Shown here: in pieces, positions 10,466 through 31,427 of the stretch | Layout: every line of letters starts with the position of its first letter | How positions within the stretch are numbered: position 1 is the first letter of the stretch | Source: Verrucomicrobia bacterium ADurb.Bin018 | GTDB lineage: Bacteria; Verrucomicrobiota; Kiritimatiellia; CAIQIC01; Lenti-01 | NCBI GenBank assembly: GCA_002071335.1 | Contig: MWEZ01000006.1 | Coordinates: 1-37,927, forward strand | DNA length: 37,927 nucleotides | Direction: 5' to 3' | Translations under genes and position numbers: made by a program | Notes under the pieces: model-generated | What the model was told of the DNA's origin: nothing | Database searches by the model: none | What the model saw: only the letters and a program-made list of their open reading frames with translations

Positions 10466-13015
10466 ATGCGCATCAAAGAATTTCTGAACCACAACCTGCT
10501 GCTGGTGGATGGGGCCATGGGTACGCAAATCCAGAATCGCAATCCGGGCGCGGCGGCCTGGGGCGCCTATGAGGGCTGCAACGAGTGGCTGAATCTGTCC
10601 GCGCCGGAAATCATCCGTGACATCCACGCGGCCTATTTTGCGGCGGGTTGCGATGCAGTGGAAACCAACAGTTTTGGCGCGTCGCCGCTGACGTTGGGAG
10701 AATATCAATTGACTGCCCGCGCGCGGGAGATCGCCCGCGCCGCCGCGCAAATTGCCCGCGGTGCCGCGAATGAGGCAGCGCAACAGAGCGGCCGCCCGCG
10801 CTATGTGCTGGGCTCCGTCGGTCCCGGCACCAAGCTGGTGACGCTCGGCCAGGTGACCTACGACGAACTCTACGGCGGCTACCAAGAGCAAATGACCGGC
10901 CTGTTGGAGGGCGGGGCGGATGGGCTGATCATTGAAACCTGCCAGGACTTGCTGCAAATCAAGGCGGCGGTGGCAGCGGCCCAAAAAGTGATGGGCGCCA
11001 ACACCGACAAATTACTTTACGTTTCCGTGACGGTGGAAACCACGGGCACGCTACTAGTGGGGTCGTCCATCGGAGCGGTCATGGCCGCCCTGGAACCATA
11101 TCCGATTGATGTGTTGGGATTGAATTGCGCCACCGGGCCGGAAGCCATGGAGCGCCACTTGGAGGCCATCGCCCGGCAATGGCGCGGTGGCCTGGGGTGC
11201 ATGCCCAATGCCGGCCTGCCCACGCTGCAAGAGGGGCGCGTGCATTATCCGCTGGGCGCGGCCGACTTCGCGCGGATATTTGCGCCGATGGTGCAACGGC
11301 TGGGGCTCAACGTAGCTGGCGGTTGCTGCGGCACGACCCCGGAACACATCCGTGAATTGCGCCGCGCGCTTGGCGCCGCGCCCGCGCCCGCGCCACGCGA
11401 CGTTCAACCGCCAGAGCAGGTGGCCAGCCTGTTCGCGCCGATGGACCTCACCCAAAACCCGCCGCCGATGTACGTGGGTGAGCGCGCCAATGCCACCGGC
11501 TCCAAAAAGTTCCGCGAAGCCCTGCTGGCCGAAAAGCTCGACACCGCATTCGATTTGCTGGTGGAGCAGGATGAAGGCGTGGCGCACGTTCTGGATTTGA
11601 GCGTGGCCTATGCCGGGCGCAACGAAACCGCCGACATGACCGCGCTGGTGGCGCGGGCCGCCCGCGAGTGCCGGCTGCCGATCATGGTGGATAGCACGCA
11701 GTTGGACGTGGTGGAAGCCGCGCTGAAATTGCACGGCGGGCGAATGTTGATCAATTCCATCAACTTTGAATCCGGCGAAGAAAAAGCGGAAAAACTCGTG
11801 GCGCTGGCCAAGCAATTCGGCGCTGGGCTGGTGGCCCTGACCATTGACGAAGTGGGCATGGGCATGACCGCCGACCGTAAGGTGGAAATCGCGCGCCGGC
11901 TGGTGGACTTTTGTGTTCAGCGCGGAATGCGCCCCGGCGATTTGCTCATTGACCCGCTAACCTTCACCATCGGCAGCGGTGACCCCGCGCTGAAAACCGC
12001 CGCCGTGGAGACCATCGAAGCCATCCGCCGCATCAAGCAGGAAATCCCCGGGGTGCGCACGCTGCTGGGGCTCTCGAACATTTCGTTCGGCTTGAAACCG
12101 GCCGCGCGCAAAGTGCTCAACACGGTTTTCCTGGACCGCTGCGTCAAGGCCGGCATGGATGCGTGCATCATCAATACTTCCGCCTTGGTGGCGCTGACGG
12201 ACCTGGCACCCGCCGCGGTGACCCTCGCCGAGCGCCTGCTGGACAACGATGCCGCGCAAGGCGACCCGCTCGAGGTCTATATCCAGCACTTCGAGACCAC
12301 CAGCCCGGAAGAGGAAGCCGCCGCGGAGGCCGCGCTACAAACTCCCGCCGAACAGGTGCAGGCCGCACTGGTCAAAGGCAAGGCCGCGCTACTAGCCGAT
12401 TCCGTTCCAGCCCTGCTGGCGGAAATGGCCGCGGAAGATGTGCTGAACAACCACCTGATCCCCGGCATGAAGGAAGTGGGCCGCCTGTTCAACGACGGCA
12501 TCCTCCAGTTGCCGTTTGTGCTGAAGTCAGCCGAGGTCATGAAGAAGGCTGTGGACATGATCAAGCCTTTCCTGAAGGCGGGCGAGGCCAAAGCCGCCGG
12601 CACCCTCGTCATTGGCACCGTCGCGGGCGACGTCCACGACATCGGCAAAAACCTGGTGGATATCATCCTCTCGAACAACGGCTACAAAGTGGTGAACCTG
12701 GGCGTCAAGGTTTCCATCGAGCGAATGTTGGAAGTCGTGCGTGAAACCAAGGCGGACATGCTGGGCATGAGCGGCCTGCTCGTCAAATCGGTGCAGGTCA
12801 TGCGCGATAACCTCAAGGCAATGGAAGCCGCCGGGCTGAACATCCCGGTACTGCTGGGCGGCGCGGCGCTCACGGAAAACTTCGTGATCAATGACTGCCA
12901 GCCCGCTTATTCCGGGCCGGTGCGCTACTGCAAGGATGCGTTCGACAGCATCACCGCCTTCCGCGAGCTGGAAGAAACCGGCCGCCTCGCGCCCACACCC
13001 CCGCCCAAGGCCTAG
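10466..13015 (+). CDS. metH: Cobalamin-dependent methionine synthase lacking the AdoMet reactivation domain
   Basis: Transfers the methyl group of 5-methyltetrahydrofolate to homocysteine via cobalamin. Domains in order: homocysteine-binding barrel (about 1-300) with zinc ligands C221, C287 and C288 (GLNCATGPEAM, GGCCGTTPEH); pterin-binding barrel (about 325-600, VGERANATGSKKF, VDSTQLDVVEAAL, INSINFESGEEK); four-helix cap and B12-binding Rossmann domain (about 620-840) with D722-x-H724-x-x-G, His724 being the lower cobalt ligand. The protein stops at 849 residues, whereas E. coli MetH has 1227; the missing part is the C-terminal domain that reductively re-methylates inactive cob(II)alamin. 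The stop is followed by non-coding DNA, so this is a genuine short form, as known in some other bacteria. GTG 10463 just before the ATG is an alternative start; GGAG is 6 nt before the ATG. Confidence 0.94.
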   Translation: MRIKEFLNHNLLLVDGAMGTQIQNRNPGAAAWGAYEGCNEWLNLSAPEIIRDIHAAYFAAGCDAVETNSFGASPLTLGEYQLTARAREIARAAAQIARGAANEAAQQSGRPRYVLGSVGPGTKLVTLGQVTYDELYGGYQEQMTGLLEGGADGLIIETCQDLLQIKAAVAAAQKVMGANTDKLLYVSVTVETTGTLLVGSSIGAVMAALEPYPIDVLGLNCATGPEAMERHLEAIARQWRGGLGCMPNAGLPTLQEGRVHYPLGAADFARIFAPMVQRLGLNVAGGCCGTTPEHIRELRRALGAAPAPAPRDVQPPEQVASLFAPMDLTQNPPPMYVGERANATGSKKFREALLAEKLDTAFDLLVEQDEGVAHVLDLSVAYAGRNETADMTALVARAARECRLPIMVDSTQLDVVEAALKLHGGRMLINSINFESGEEKAEKLVALAKQFGAGLVALTIDEVGMGMTADRKVEIARRLVDFCVQRGMRPGDLLIDPLTFTIGSGDPALKTAAVETIEAIRRIKQEIPGVRTLLGLSNISFGLKPAARKVLNTVFLDRCVKAGMDACIINTSALVALTDLAPAAVTLAERLLDNDAAQGDPLEVYIQHFETTSPEEEAAAEAALQTPAEQVQAALVKGKAALLADSVPALLAEMAAEDVLNNHLIPGMKEVGRLFNDGILQLPFVLKSAEVMKKAVDMIKPFLKAGEAKAAGTLVIGTVAGDVHDIGKNLVDIILSNNGYKVVNLGVKVSIERMLEVVRETKADMLGMSGLLVKSVQVMRDNLKAMEAAGLNIPVLLGGAALTENFVINDCQPAYSGPVRYCKDAFDSITAFRELEETGRLAPTPPPKA

Positions 13016-13025
13016 CGACAGCCGG

Positions 13026-13044
13026 TTTTCCACAGCGTGGGAAA
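13026..13044. repeat. Degenerate outlying palindrome unit
   Basis: TTTTCCACAGCGTGGGAAA lies just after the metH stop, 137 bp before the first regular unit of the array. Its left arm is intact and its right arm carries a changed base. It looks like an isolated relic of the same element. Confidence 0.5.
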
Positions 13045-13050
13045 GAGGGT

Positions 13051-13078
13051 TCAGAGGTCAGAGGTCAGGGTTCAGGGA
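13051..13078. repeat. Heptamer tandem repeat TCAGRGK, four units
   Basis: Four consecutive 7-mers: TCAGAGG, TCAGAGG, TCAGGGT, TCAGGGA. This is a short simple-sequence repeat in the metH-cstA gap, of the slippage-prone kind. Confidence 0.7.
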
Positions 13079-13079
13079 C

Positions 13080-13098
13080 CAGCCGTGATTCACGGCTG
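13080..13098. terminator. Stem-loop after metH, possible terminator
   Basis: CAGCCGTG and CACGGCTG form an 8-bp stem with loop ATT about 65 nt after the metH stop. No T-run follows, so it may end transcripts by another route or only protect a 3' end. Confidence 0.3.
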
Positions 13099-13162
13099 CC
13101 GACCCAGTTTCTCTACCATATGAATCACGCCCCGTGTTGCCTTTGCCTGCTTGATTCGATGG

Positions 13163-13338
13163 TTTTCCACAGTGTGGAAAAATAAATTCCACAGTGTGGA
13201 AAAATTCGGGTCGCAGCGCGGGTATTTTTCTACGCAATGGAAAAACTTTCACAAATTTTTCCACACAATGGAACAACTTTGGGCCCATTTTTCCACGCTA
13301 TGGAAAACTTATGCGGATTTTTTCCACGGTGTGGAAAA
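13163..13338. repeat. Palindrome array 1: six TTTTCCA-N5-TGGAAAA units
   Basis: Six 19-bp units have centres at 13172, 13194, 13235, 13266, 13298 and 13329, so the steps are 22, 41, 31, 32 and 31 bp, near multiples of the DNA helical repeat. Arms are conserved and the 5-nt core varies (CAGTG, CAGTG, CGCAA, CACAA, CGCTA, CGGTG); the second unit has only TTCCA/TGGAA arms and the third and fourth carry one arm change each. The rest of the 426-bp metH-cstA gap holds the heptamers, one stem-loop and no convincing gene. ORFs through the array only translate the repeat. Confidence 0.9.
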
Positions 13339-13441: not shown

Positions 13442-15151
13442 ATGCTGGGCTTGATATTTCTGGGTTGCTGCGGGCTGTTCTGGGCGGCGTATAAGATTTA
13501 CGGCGGCTGGATGGAGCGCCGGCTGGACATGCTGGAGGAACGGCTAACGCCCGCCCACACGATGTATGACGGGGTGGATTATGCCCCGGCGCCGGATGCG
13601 GTGGTGTTCGGGCATCATTTCAGCTCGATTGCCGGTGCGGGGCCGATTGTGGGGCCGATTGCGGCGGCGTTGGCGTTTGGCTGGGGGCCAGCGCTGGTGT
13701 GGATTGTGCTGGGGGTGATCTTTATCGGCGGGGTGCAGGACTACACCTCGATGATGGCCAGCGTGCGCAACAAAGGGCAGAGCTTGGCGCAAATCGGCCG
13801 GAGCGCGATGGGCCCGCTAACGTATCGCCTGTTTCTATTGTTCATCCTGCTGGTGCTGCTTTATGTGATCATGGTGTTTCTGGACATGACTGCGGCGACG
13901 TTCGCGCCGATTACGCTGAAGTGGGGGGCGCCGGAAACGGTGGAGTCGCGGATTGGTGGCGTGGTGGCGACGGCATCGGTGTTTTATATTTTTCTGGCGG
14001 CGGTGTTTGGGTGGGTGCTGAACCGCTGGAAGATGCCGCTGCGCAAAGCCACGCTGCTGGCGGTGCCGCTGGTGTTTGGCGGGTTGTGGCTGGGGCAGGT
14101 GTGGCCGCTGGCGCCATCGTTGGTGCCCTCGCTGTTGGGGTCGGACAAATATTTTTGGTCGGCCATTTTGCTGGTGTATTGTTTGGTGGCGTCGGCGTTG
14201 CCGGTATGGGCGCTCTTGCAGCCGCGCGATTATTTGTCGTCGTTTTTACTTTACGCCTGCCTGCTGGGGGGCGCGGTGGGGTTGTTGCTGGGGTCGGGGA
14301 GCGGCGCGGCGACGATTGCCTGGCCGGCGTTCATCACGGCGCAGACGCCGGCGGATGGGTGGATTTATCCGGCGCTCTGCGTGATGATTGCCTGCGGCGC
14401 GGTAAGCGGCTTCCACGCGGTGCTGGCCAGCGGGACCACGTCCAAGCAGTTGAACCGGGAAAGTTCCGTGAAGCGGGTGGGGCTGGGGGCCATGCTGGTC
14501 GAAGCCGTACTGGCGGTGCTGGCGCTGGCGACAGTAATGATTTTGGCGGAGAAGCCGGCGCTGTCGCCACCGGCTATTTTCGCGGCGGGGATCGAGCGGT
14601 TCTTCCGGCCGCTGGGCGTGCCGGACGGTTGGATCATGTCGCTGGCGATGCTGGCGGTGAGCACGTTTGTACTGACAACGTTGGATACGTGCACACGATT
14701 GTGCCGGATTATTTTGCAGGAGCTGACGGGCTTTGGGTCAGAGACCACCTGGAAGCGGGTGGTTTCGACAGTGGTGGTGCTGGCGCTGCCGGCCTATGTG
14801 GTGTTTCAGGAAATCCCGGGGGCGGGGGGGCAGTTGATGCCGGCGTGGCGCGCCATCTGGCCGGCGTTTGGCGCGACAAACCAGTTGATGGGCGCAATGG
14901 CGCTGCTGATGGTGTATGGCTGGCTGCGCAACCAAGGCAAGTCGGCGTGGTTTGTATGGTTGCCGATGGTGTTCATGTTCGTGACCACGATGCTGGCGCT
15001 GGCGCAGATTGTGTGGCGTAACTTCCAGCAGGATGGCAGCAAGTTGATCGGCGGCTTGAGCGCGGTGCTGCTGGCGCTGGCAGCAGTGGTGCTGGTGGAT
15101 GTGGCGATGCGCGTGGTGCGCCGGTGGTCGCCGCTGTTCTCCCGCGGATAA
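13442..15151 (+). CDS. cstA: CstA family carbon-starvation transporter (peptide/pyruvate uptake)
   Basis: Inner-membrane protein of 569 residues with about 15 hydrophobic segments. The family signature HHFSSIAGAGPIVGP is at 58-72, followed by GVIFIGGVQDYTSMMASVRNKGQS, both diagnostic of CstA/BtsT proteins, which take up peptides or pyruvate when carbon is short. It is shorter than E. coli CstA (about 700 residues) but the core is intact. The ATG at 13442 has only a weak GGTGG-type site upstream. The gene follows the palindrome array with about 100 bp between them, so the array could influence its promoter; I see no clear -10/-35 pair there. Base usage is rich in TGG/CTG/GTG, as expected for a membrane protein in a GC-rich genome. 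Confidence 0.92.
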   Translation: MLGLIFLGCCGLFWAAYKIYGGWMERRLDMLEERLTPAHTMYDGVDYAPAPDAVVFGHHFSSIAGAGPIVGPIAAALAFGWGPALVWIVLGVIFIGGVQDYTSMMASVRNKGQSLAQIGRSAMGPLTYRLFLLFILLVLLYVIMVFLDMTAATFAPITLKWGAPETVESRIGGVVATASVFYIFLAAVFGWVLNRWKMPLRKATLLAVPLVFGGLWLGQVWPLAPSLVPSLLGSDKYFWSAILLVYCLVASALPVWALLQPRDYLSSFLLYACLLGGAVGLLLGSGSGAATIAWPAFITAQTPADGWIYPALCVMIACGAVSGFHAVLASGTTSKQLNRESSVKRVGLGAMLVEAVLAVLALATVMILAEKPALSPPAIFAAGIERFFRPLGVPDGWIMSLAMLAVSTFVLTTLDTCTRLCRIILQELTGFGSETTWKRVVSTVVVLALPAYVVFQEIPGAGGQLMPAWRAIWPAFGATNQLMGAMALLMVYGWLRNQGKSAWFVWLPMVFMFVTTMLALAQIVWRNFQQDGSKLIGGLSAVLLALAAVVLVDVAMRVVRRWSPLFSRG

Positions 15152-28873: not shown

Positions 28874-29719
28874 TCAGTCGGTTTGCAGCGCTTCGAGCTG
28901 GCGCAGCACTTCCGACAGCGCGCCGATGCTGGGGTGCCGCTGCGCGGTCTCGCGGACAAATCGAATCGTGGGGGGGATCAAATCGCGGCGTCCCTGTGCG
29001 ATGAGCTGCAGCAGCGCCTGATACACCATGCGGCGTAAGGAGAGGTCATCAAAATCCGCGCGGGCAAAAGGCAGCCCGGCCATGGCCCAATAGATGGCTT
29101 GCGCCTGTGGTGTGTGCCAATCCAGCGCGCCGAACTCGCGCTCGATGGCGGCCACGCGCGCCGGATCGAGGTTCACCGCGCCGCTGGCGACTTCCGCGGC
29201 CCATTGCTCGCGGTAGTATGCCGCCGCGTGGTCGGAATCGGTGCCAAGCTTGTGCAGGAAAAGCCACGCCAATTCCTGATAAAGGCGGGCGGAGCCGGGA
29301 TTGGCAGCGAGGCCCTCATCGCGCAACAGCACGATGCCATCGCGCACCCAGCGCCAGCGGTCGGCGTTGGCCGGCATCAGCGCGGAGATATTGTAGGCCA
29401 TGTTCCACGCGTGATACGCCCAGATGGCCGGGCTGCGCGGCTGCAACTTGGCGATCCAGTCGGACAATTGCACCAGCTCGAAGAAGCGGCCCTCGTCCTG
29501 CAAGCGGCCGGCGCGCATCCAGAGGATGTCCGCCAGCACGCCGCGGAAGCCGCCCAGCACCACGGTGGTCAGCGCGACGGATGGCGGCAGGTTGCGCGTG
29601 GGCGGGGCCAGCGTGAGGTGCGCGCGACTCCGCAACGCCAGCAGGCGCGTATTGAACGCCCCGGCCAGCAGCAGCGCCACCAGCGCCAACACCCACCAAA
29701 TGCCGCGCCATCCCCTCAT
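28874..29719 (-). CDS. Conserved-looking TPR-like protein with N-terminal membrane anchor
   Basis: A 281-residue protein with one N-terminal hydrophobic span (about 7-22, WWVLALVALLLAGAF) and a helical, Trp/Tyr-rich remainder. Stretches such as GRFFELVQLSDWIAKLQPRSPAIWAYHAWNMAYN and GSARLYQELAWLFLHKLG have the helix-turn-helix spacing of tetratricopeptide repeats. I do not recognise a named family. It is downstream of an ABC-2 permease gene on the same strand, separated by palindrome array 2, so the two may belong to one export-related unit. Confidence 0.7.
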   Translation of the reverse strand: MRGWRGIWWVLALVALLLAGAFNTRLLALRSRAHLTLAPPTRNLPPSVALTTVVLGGFRGVLADILWMRAGRLQDEGRFFELVQLSDWIAKLQPRSPAIWAYHAWNMAYNISALMPANADRWRWVRDGIVLLRDEGLAANPGSARLYQELAWLFLHKLGTDSDHAAAYYREQWAAEVASGAVNLDPARVAAIEREFGALDWHTPQAQAIYWAMAGLPFARADFDDLSLRRMVYQALLQLIAQGRRDLIPPTIRFVRETAQRHPSIGALSEVLRQLEALQTD

Positions 29720-29749: not shown

Positions 29750-30009
29750 TTTTCCACGCTGTGGAAAAATAATTTCCACACTGTGGAAAAAACAACGCCC
29801 CGCAGCCCAAATTTTTCCACACCGTGGAAAAAAGTTTTCCACACTGTGGAAAAAACAACGCCCCGCAGCCCAAATTTTTCCACACTGTGGAAAAAAAGTT
29901 TCCACACTGTGGAAAAACATGTCCGATTTTTCCACGCAATGGAAAAAGTTTCAGCGAATTTTCCACGCAATGGAACGACTTTGCGGGGATTTTTCCACAC
30001 TGTGGAAAA
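29750..30009. repeat. Palindrome array 2: nine TTTTCCA-N5-TGGAAAA units
   Basis: Nine 19-bp units have centres at 29759, 29781, 29822, 29844, 29885, 29907, 29937, 29968 and 30000, giving steps of 22, 41, 22, 41, 22, 30, 31 and 32 bp. The commonest unit is TTTTCCACACTGTGGAAAA. The array fills most of the 307-bp gap between the ABC-2 permease and TPR-like genes. Within it a 63-bp segment is tandemly duplicated (29773-29835 and 29836-29898). The last three units align without gaps to three units of array 1. Confidence 0.92.
29773..29898. repeat. Two tandem copies of a 63-bp segment inside array 2
   Basis: Each copy contains one unit, a spacer with CAACGCCCCGCAGCCCAAA, and a second unit. The copies differ at very few positions, and a partial third copy follows to about 29914. 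The near-identity suggests a recent duplication. Confidence 0.85.
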
Positions 30010-30026: not shown

Positions 30027-31427
30027 TCATGTGGAGTTGGGGAGGGCCCATTCGCGGGTTTTCAGGACGGCGGTGGCGATCAGCGCCAGCAGTGCGGGCA
30101 GGCCGAGGCCTTGCACCAGCAGCGCGCGCAGGACATGGCGTGGCGGCAGGTGGGTGCCGGTAGCGAGTTGGTCGAGCGTGTGGTCGTCGAGCAGCGGGCG
30201 CAGGGCGTACCAAGTGCCGCGGTAGGTGACGTAGAGGACGTTGGCCACGCCGCGGGCCAGGAGCGAGGGCGCGGGGGCGGCGTCATCGTGGGCGTGGCCG
30301 CCGCCGAATTGCGCGACGTTGGCCACAAAGGTGGCGCGGTCGGTTTGCGCGGCGCTGCTGACGAAGCTGGAAAGCTGCAGCACGAGAATCAGCACCAGCG
30401 CGAGGAACGAGGCCACCGGCAGGGAGAACAAAGTGCCGAGGGTGACGCCAATGGCCGCAAACAGCGCGAGGCGCAAAAAGAGCAGGGCCAGCGCACGCAG
30501 GTAGTTGCCGGCAAAAGCGCCGACCGGTGTGCGCAGGGTGAGGCCGGCGGCCGGTTCAAAAAACAACGTGGAGTTGGCGGGGGCGCGGTTGACCACGTCC
30601 ACGGTGATGACGGCGGCGGCGGGGACGTTGTCGAAGATGATGGTTTGTGGCGTGCCGGCCATGGCGGAAAAGTCGCGGCTGGCGGTGTAGTCGCCGCTGT
30701 GCAGGCGCACGGTGCCTTGGATTTCCACGGCGCCGGGGATGGAGGAGTCGCAGGAAAATTGCACCAGTTGGCGCGTGGCGGCGGGCGGTTGCGGGAAGGA
30801 CCACAAGCGGGTAGCACCGGCAGCGAGGGAGTAGAGCTGGGCGAGGCGCGTGCGGCGGATGCTGTCGCGCACGACAGCGGGCGGGGCGTCGGGGGGGAGG
30901 GCGCGGCGGGCGCGGAGATGCGTGTATTCGGCTTCGACATCGGCAGTGATGTCGGGCAGGGGGGCGGTGGTGGTGGCGAGCGCGGTAAGCGTGGTGGCGT
31001 GGGCTTGCGCGAGATCCTCCGGCGCGAAGCCACCGTGGCGTAGCTTGTAACGCAGGGTTAGTGCAGATGTGCTGCCGGCCAGCGCGAGCAACAGCGCGTT
31101 CAGCAGCAGCAGTGCGAGCCATTTGCCGAGCCAGACGTGCGTGCGCGGCACAGGTTTGGCCAAGAGGAGTTGCAGGGTTTTGTCGTCGGCTTCCTGGGCT
31201 ATGGCTGCGCAGCCGGCCCATAGCGTGGCAAGGGTCAACAGAAACGAAGCGCTGCCGAGGGTGTAGGCCAGGTGCAGGTGGATGAGGCCGGCGGGGGTGC
31301 CATCGCTGCGAATGGTGGCGGGCAGCAGGCAGATGGCCGCGCCCAGCAGCAGGGCCAGCACCAGCACGATCCGCGAGCGGAACGTCAGCCGCAACGCTTG
31401 CAACGCGATGGCCCAAATGACTTTCAT
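30027..31427 (-). CDS. ABC-2 type transporter permease with large extracytoplasmic domain
   Basis: A 466-residue permease. Three or four spans lie in residues 15-125, including the ABC-2/NosY-like segment AQEADDKTLQLLLAKPVPRTHVWLGK, which would contact an ATPase. Residues about 130-305 form a soluble domain predicted outside the membrane, with beta-rich text (GAVEIQGTVRLHSGDYT, TPQTIIFDNVPAAAVITVDV). Further spans follow (about 310-370 and 430-455). No ABC ATPase gene is adjacent in the window: the upstream neighbour is a small soluble protein overlapping by ATGA. The ATPase must be elsewhere or shared. The substrate is unknown. Confidence 0.8.
   Translation of the reverse strand: MKVIWAIALQALRLTFRSRIVLVLALLLGAAICLLPATIRSDGTPAGLIHLHLAYTLGSASFLLTLATLWAGCAAIAQEADDKTLQLLLAKPVPRTHVWLGKWLALLLLNALLLALAGSTSALTLRYKLRHGGFAPEDLAQAHATTLTALATTTAPLPDITADVEAEYTHLRARRALPPDAPPAVVRDSIRRTRLAQLYSLAAGATRLWSFPQPPAATRQLVQFSCDSSIPGAVEIQGTVRLHSGDYTASRDFSAMAGTPQTIIFDNVPAAAVITVDVVNRAPANSTLFFEPAAGLTLRTPVGAFAGNYLRALALLFLRLALFAAIGVTLGTLFSLPVASFLALVLILVLQLSSFVSSAAQTDRATFVANVAQFGGGHAHDDAAPAPSLLARGVANVLYVTYRGTWYALRPLLDDHTLDQLATGTHLPPRHVLRALLVQGLGLPALLALIATAVLKTREWALPNST

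Follow-up and report, generated by a model that had tools for sequence, protein, structure and literature searches.

A family of putative protein-binding palindromes, helically phased and dispersed through genomes of the Kiritimatiellae

Described repeat systems and the arrays

REP/BIME elements occur as hundreds of short palindromes per genome that are mostly extragenic, often lie near gene 3' ends and form regularly spaced mosaics, and it has been proposed that architectural proteins bind them (PMC2817692, PMC3733652). In the broad sense, the palindromes analysed here are of this kind. The genome of the window (the window being the whole 37,927-nucleotide stretch that we analysed) contains 235 exact, clustered copies, and in a relative, G017, 37 of 46 clusters fall outside called genes in a genome with 88% of bases coding. 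However, the GTAG or CGTC foot of REP elements is absent from the profile of 439 units (T4 arms) and their flanks. A link to RAYT transposases was rejected, as Y1_Tnp match counts do not follow the numbers of sites, and G005 (86% complete) has 72 sites and no match. The units also differ from REP elements in their strict helical phasing, in having two half-site classes in a fixed order, and in half-sites that change independently, with the result that the hairpin is lost in some units (hybrid units of G013, 0 kcal/mol).

The stoperators of Cluster A mycobacteriophages are dispersed in large number over one phage genome, in short gaps at gene boundaries, and all serve one DNA-binding protein; each is an asymmetric site of 13 bp, and their orientation strongly follows transcription (PMC9283540). 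The two-domain protein that reads this asymmetric site provides a precedent for the two-letter half-site code described below (PMC9283540), and the sites analysed here are likewise dispersed in short intergenic gaps. Unlike stoperators, they form phased chromosomal arrays and appear to have a weak orientation bias. No array was found in the IMG/VR viral contigs searched, and a phage or prophage origin was rejected on this basis.

ArgR, which controls a small arginine regulon, binds cooperatively to one face of the helix at ARG boxes, palindromes of about 18-19 bp that are about 3 bp apart. The 22-bp pairs in our arrays resemble paired ARG boxes, but the sites number in the hundreds, lie beside unrelated genes, are grouped in arrays that reach ten units, and have a second period of 31 bp. 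In plasmid iterons and centromeres, whole-turn repeats build a nucleoprotein complex at one locus per replicon. The whole-turn repeats here are similar, but they are spread over the chromosome rather than confined to a handful of loci. Of the 202 sites in a one-contig genome from another family, the first 100 are distributed across 1.77 Mb in a manner compatible with a uniform spread (KS test, p = 0.11), with near pairs 31, 32, 32 and 73 bp apart. The first-pass annotation of the window had offered a replication or segregation site or a titration locus as possible functions; hundreds of dispersed copies per genome beside unrelated genes argue against any such single locus. Its further suggestion, a chromosome organiser, is possible.

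We found no description of the exact unit or of Kiritimatiellae repeats in the open-access literature, and two REP surveys do not mention the class. The arrays match neither a regulon nor an origin, a centromere, a terminator or a REP/RAYT element, and the palindromes constitute a family not described before, with hundreds of sites in one bacterial class that resemble protein-binding sites.

Arrays, copy number and helical phasing

The window belongs to a Kiritimatiellae metagenome-assembled genome (G000; 2.75 Mb in 429 contigs) and carries two non-identical arrays (Table 1). The nine TTTTCCA-N5-TGGAAAA palindromes reported at 29750-30009 were confirmed in both position and spacing, six of them with perfect 7-bp arms. 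Allowing up to three mismatches, the window holds 19 matches compared to 0.83 expected, a number reached in none of 100 dinucleotide shuffles. Short direct repeats (e.g., GGTTCAGGGTTCAG or GGGGACAGGAGACAG) occur beside arrays, at 13045-13075 in the window and in gaps of loci L029, L052 and L099, and may be part of inserted material.

Table 1. Arrays, units and neighbouring genes in the window. Coordinates are window positions; spacings are between unit starts.
Feature	Coordinates	Strand	Sequence or product	Unit type	Spacing (bp)	Remarks
MetH-like gene	10466..13015	+	homocysteine S-methyltransferase/pterin-binding/B12-binding protein			second array lies 3' of it
Second array	13026..13338	.			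137, 22, 41, 31, 32, 31	units at 13026, 13163, 13185, 13226, 13257, 13289, 13320
CstA gene	13442..15151	+	carbon starvation protein			downstream of second array
Gene without Pfam match	28874..29692	-				nine-unit array lies 5' of it; start 29692, or 29719 by longest ORF
63-bp tandem repeat	29750..29917	.				2.7 copies, 92% matches; underlies first five intervals
Unit 1	29750..29768	.	TTTTCCA CGCTG TGGAAAA	aa
Unit 2	29772..29790	.	ATTTCCA CACTG TGGAAAA	aa	22	1 mismatch
Unit 3	29813..29831	.	TTTTCCA CACCG TGGAAAA	aa	41
Unit 4	29835..29853	.	TTTTCCA CACTG TGGAAAA	aa	22
Unit 5	29876..29894	.	TTTTCCA CACTG TGGAAAA	aa	41
Unit 6	29898..29916	.	GTTTCCA CACTG TGGAAAA	aa	22	1 mismatch
Unit 7	29928..29946	+	TTTTCCA CGCAA TGGAAAA	ab	30	oriented
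Unit 8	29959..29977	+	TTTTCCA CGCAA TGGAACG	ab	31	2 mismatches; orientation as unit 7
Unit 9	29991..30009	.	TTTTCCA CACTG TGGAAAA	aa	32
ABC-2 gene	30027..31427	-	ABC-2 type membrane protein			nine-unit array lies 3' of it; stop 17 bp from array

The reversed control pattern gave no match in the window genome. Class-wide counts, made with the N5 core pattern and mostly on metagenome bins, identified at least one exact unit in 103 of 288 sampled genomes, with a maximum of 718 in one genome of the home order. This order is rich in units; elsewhere in the class the distribution is patchy, with up to some hundreds of units in families f10, f15, f19, f20 and f31 and in part of f8. Genomes of the same phylum outside the class have 0-2 exact units, with the single exception of G397, which has seven. 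The named relatives bearing similar arrays are Kiritimatiellae, Lentisphaerae or Verrucomicrobia bins. Many sites are single 19-bp units. The units are nevertheless not almost always single, as each of the nine loci sampled from the window genome holds 2-9 of them.

The nine-unit array alone is weaker evidence for phasing than it appears. Its 22-41-22-41-22 part is largely the 63-bp tandem repeat, and those intervals are thus not independent; the genome-wide data settle the point. For stretches of six genomes from four families (G000, G006, G007, G017, G018 and G019), we collected 181 neighbour distances of up to 110 bp. These fall into few classes: 21-23 bp (32 distances), 29-33 bp (137), 40-42 bp (8), 59 bp (1) and 62-63 bp (3). 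For a period of 10.5 bp, the distances give a mean vector length of R = 0.89, or 0.88 for non-redundant spacers only (n = 110). Without the 30-32 bp class R is 0.82 (n = 47), or 0.71 if the spacers are also made non-redundant (n = 24). The best-fitting period is near 9.8-10.1 bp, although it is poorly resolved because so few distance classes exist. The whole-turn spacing claimed for the window therefore extends genome-wide, with distances quantised near whole helical turns, and the claim withstood the refuting test that the first-pass annotation had set for it.

Spacer sequences indicate how far copying contributes to this regularity. Spacer identity in G017 is chance-like (0.28 within arrays, 0.32 between), yet nearly all steps are 31 or 32 bp; thus, the phasing in this genome cannot be due to copying alone. 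Within arrays of the window's family, spacers are partly alike (0.57, vs. 0.35 between arrays), which indicates that tandem duplication contributes to array growth, and it may account for the uniform unit orientation. Whole-turn spacing is independent of spacer sequence, as expected of a phased binding array. That the phasing is kept in six genomes and four families with unrelated spacers supports the first-pass proposal of sites that would face one side of the DNA and be read through their arms.

Half-site grammar and a half-site switch

The 439 units give the profile TTTTCCA-Y-R-S-Y-R-TGGAAAA, in which each arm position carries nearly 2 bits; the spacers carry little information. We assigned half-sites to two classes by the base following TTTTCCA (C in a, T in b). 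There are 186 aa, 262 ab and 15 bb units, compared to 217, 200 and 46 under chance pairing. The order of half-sites along arrays is also constrained: ab units 31 bp apart are head-to-tail in 116 steps and opposite in none, aa-22-ba steps outnumber aa-22-ab (63 vs. 14), and aa-30-ab steps outnumber aa-30-ba (23 vs. 1). Frequent whole arrays have the form aa-22-ba-31-ba, with or without a further 30-aa. Uniform orientation could also stem from tandem duplication, and the orientation rule alone is thus no proof of function. The earlier proposal of a dimeric protein that reads the arms holds for arm recognition; a simple homodimer site does not agree with two half-site classes in a fixed order, one of which changes alone.

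This change is seen in some relatives, in which the b half-site is now TTTTACGT and a is unchanged. G012 has only 14 TTTTCCA units, compared to 89-253 otherwise in its genus, and has 152 TTTTACG-N5-CGTAAAA (ACG/ACG) units that keep the 31-bp spacing. In G013, we identified 177 CCA/CCA, 34 ACG/ACG and 104 hybrid TTTTCCA/CGTAAAA units, the hybrids being mostly TTTTCCAC-GCT-ACGTAAAA. Elsewhere in the family, hybrids number 19 in G014 and 0-1 in the other 15 genomes. The other half-site, the spacing and the array layout are unchanged alongside the switched half-site. The folding energy of hybrids is 0 kcal/mol, vs. -4.5 to -6.9 kcal/mol for symmetric units. Hairpin or RNA explanations are thus excluded for the hybrid units, and their inability to form hairpins is a strong argument for two proteins, or two domains, that read DNA. 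The hybrids are the strongest evidence for separate reading of the two half-sites on duplex DNA.

Four G013 contigs (C10, C12, C13 and C14; L305-L308) begin 50-230 bases from a mixed array. The sequence CACACGCTTTCGGACATT precedes three of these arrays, and L314 ends with its reverse complement; the contig-start arrays seem to be accompanied by a longer repeat.

Genomic placement, turnover and possible roles

Gene calls were made heuristically from codon usage, and individual gene boundaries can therefore be wrong. Among G017 gaps of at least 60 bp, arrays are present in 10 of 21 convergent, 6 of 22 divergent and 17 of 71 tandem gaps. We rejected a promoter-only location, as convergent gaps hold arrays at least as often as the others. 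Many arrays begin a few to 60 bp past a stop codon. Within tandem gaps, arrays are not strongly enriched at the upstream stop codon and show a trend only (34 of 54, p = 0.08). Oriented ab units with a gene 3' end within 60 bp point against the direction of that gene in 39 cases and along it in 19 (p = 0.01, although the units are not independent); the bias is weak in tandem gaps (31 vs. 17, p = 0.06). Units of the home order are mostly intergenic, unlike those of G177 (L246-L247; family f19, to which the one-contig genome belongs), in which units also lie inside strongly scoring called genes.

The 120 flanking proteins match 132 Pfam families, mostly unrelated housekeeping functions, and no recurrent regulon was identified. 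Regulon operators, which would be found at promoters of functionally related genes, were rejected given the unrelated flanking genes and the occupied convergent gaps. DUF480, a suspected winged-helix protein encoded beside two arrays, was rejected as the binder because it is missing from G006, G009, G019 and G020, genomes with 181-441 sites.

In G017, 5 of 29 arrays that face a gene start (L189-L208; e.g., L191:8177-8226 and L194:13283-13363) are followed by a -10-like TAnnnT 14-15 bp beyond their last unit, and some arrays thus abut promoters. The TTGGAA of the unit could serve as a -35 box at these arrays, with a 16-bp spacer. Such abutment via TAnnnT was not seen in the home family.

Arrays differ between relatives at orthologous gaps. 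The gap after the MetH-like gene carries arrays in G000, G010 and G016; in G001, G007, G012 and G013 there is no array, and no more than a few bases separate the MetH-like gene from its neighbour. After the ABC-2 gene, CCA arrays are present in G000 (the nine-unit array) and G011, and G012 has a TTTTACG array directly after the gene; the other relatives compared have no array. Overlapping named loci, which were selected for arrays, include several gaps that are occupied in two or three genomes (60-88% protein identity) by arrays with differing cores, spacers and unit numbers. In a small set of unbiased stretches, arrays are present in both members of 2 ortholog pairs, in one member of 5 and in neither of 30 (Fisher p = 0.08). 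Given this patchiness, no single site looks indispensable. Sites thus turn over rapidly, as would be expected whether they are numerous architectural sites of weak individual importance or a mobile repeat.

At the gene boundary that follows the ABC-2 gene, G013 (L288:2976-3335) encodes a 119-aa 23S rRNA-intervening-sequence protein (PF05635, E 5e-25), flanked by ATTAAGAATT-type repeats in opposite orientation. This gene is also found at the equivalent boundary in L286 (G016) and, shortened, in L289 (G014). It looks like another element inserted where the window has its array.

We consider it reasonably probable that the arrays are dispersed, one-faced nucleoprotein platforms with a local architectural or insulating role. 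Each unit would comprise two half-sites for a pair of DNA-binding proteins (two paralogues) or for two DNA-binding domains. Neighbouring bound complexes on one face of the helix would touch and form a directional nucleoprotein stack, in which aa units occupy the ends at a distance of 22 or 30 bp and head-to-tail ab units are 31 bp apart. Units could thus stack at two, three or four turns. Hundreds of such platforms, as single units or as arrays of up to about ten, would be distributed across the chromosome, mostly between genes, where they might bend or stiffen the DNA or act as barriers to supercoiling or transcription between neighbouring genes. Local architecture or insulation is the most likely role, rather than that of regulon operators.

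Chief among the rivals is a BIME-like repeat of mobile or selfish nature. In this reading, a transposase or recombinase that binds the phased half-sites would copy the non-autonomous arrays into gene boundaries, and any host function would be secondary. We consider this unlikely, but it would explain why arrays split gene pairs that abut elsewhere (in G010 and G016 compared to G007, G012 and G013, and in the window's ABC-2 gap compared to G007), why several G013 contigs begin at arrays, and why sites with the new half-site coexist with old ones in that genome. The mostly intergenic location, often 10-60 bp past a stop codon, is also consistent with such copying. However, the arrays have no common element ends, their spacers are unrelated between arrays, and many sites are single units. 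The occurrence of REP-type Y1 transposases does not follow that of the sites, the IMG/VR viral contigs searched contain no array, and some gaps are occupied in several genera with cores that differ. The first-pass argument that a mobile hairpin would not keep such phasing nonetheless went too far, given the gain and loss of arrays among relatives.

Next in standing, and somewhat less likely again, are roadblock or operator sites of a global regulator, at which bound arrays would stop elongation or set promoter activity by analogy with the stoperators of mycobacteriophage L5. The position of arrays at gene boundaries, often just past stop codons, is compatible with this, as is the lean of ab units against the gene with a nearby 3' end, and the exact 14-15 bp distance to TAnnnT in G017 suggests that a unit can cover the -35 region. 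Roadblocks agree less well with arrays that are at least as common in convergent gaps as in others (10 of 21 vs. 23 of 93 in G017), with unrelated flanking genes, with arrays inside gene pairs that abut in relatives, and with the weak orientation bias in tandem gaps.

Hairpins in RNA or cruciforms (terminators or mRNA stabilisers) are highly improbable: symmetric units fold and many lie past stop codons, but hybrids in G013 keep position and spacing and cannot pair, the unit reads TTTT...AAAA and on neither strand has the T run (U-tract) that follows the G+C-rich stem of an intrinsic terminator, and helical phasing would be meaningless for separate RNA hairpins. Equally remote is titration of the initiator by paired, head-to-head DnaA boxes (TTTTCCACA, found on both strands of some units in the window genome), given the hundreds of dispersed copies and the absence of a conserved TTWTNCACA, as the last bases vary freely by lineage (CCAC, CCAT, CCAA, and ACGT as in the TTTTACG of G012) and the CACA part is not kept.

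If the arrays are indeed architectural or insulating platforms, a poorly studied class would possess genome-wide, sequence-specific, one-faced platforms with a readable grammar and steps of 22 and 30-32 bp, and a half-turn shift between units should destroy function. More tentatively, we suggest a class-wide system that has no described counterpart, with two modules, a two-letter half-site code, directional phased arrays of architectural or insulating role at hundreds of gene boundaries, and a recognition specificity of one module that can be switched genome-wide with the other module and the geometry kept. The hybrid-site lineage would then be a natural experiment in which hundreds of sites changed one half-site together. 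This switch makes the co-evolution of protein and site directly testable, and provides a sharp handle on the binding protein.
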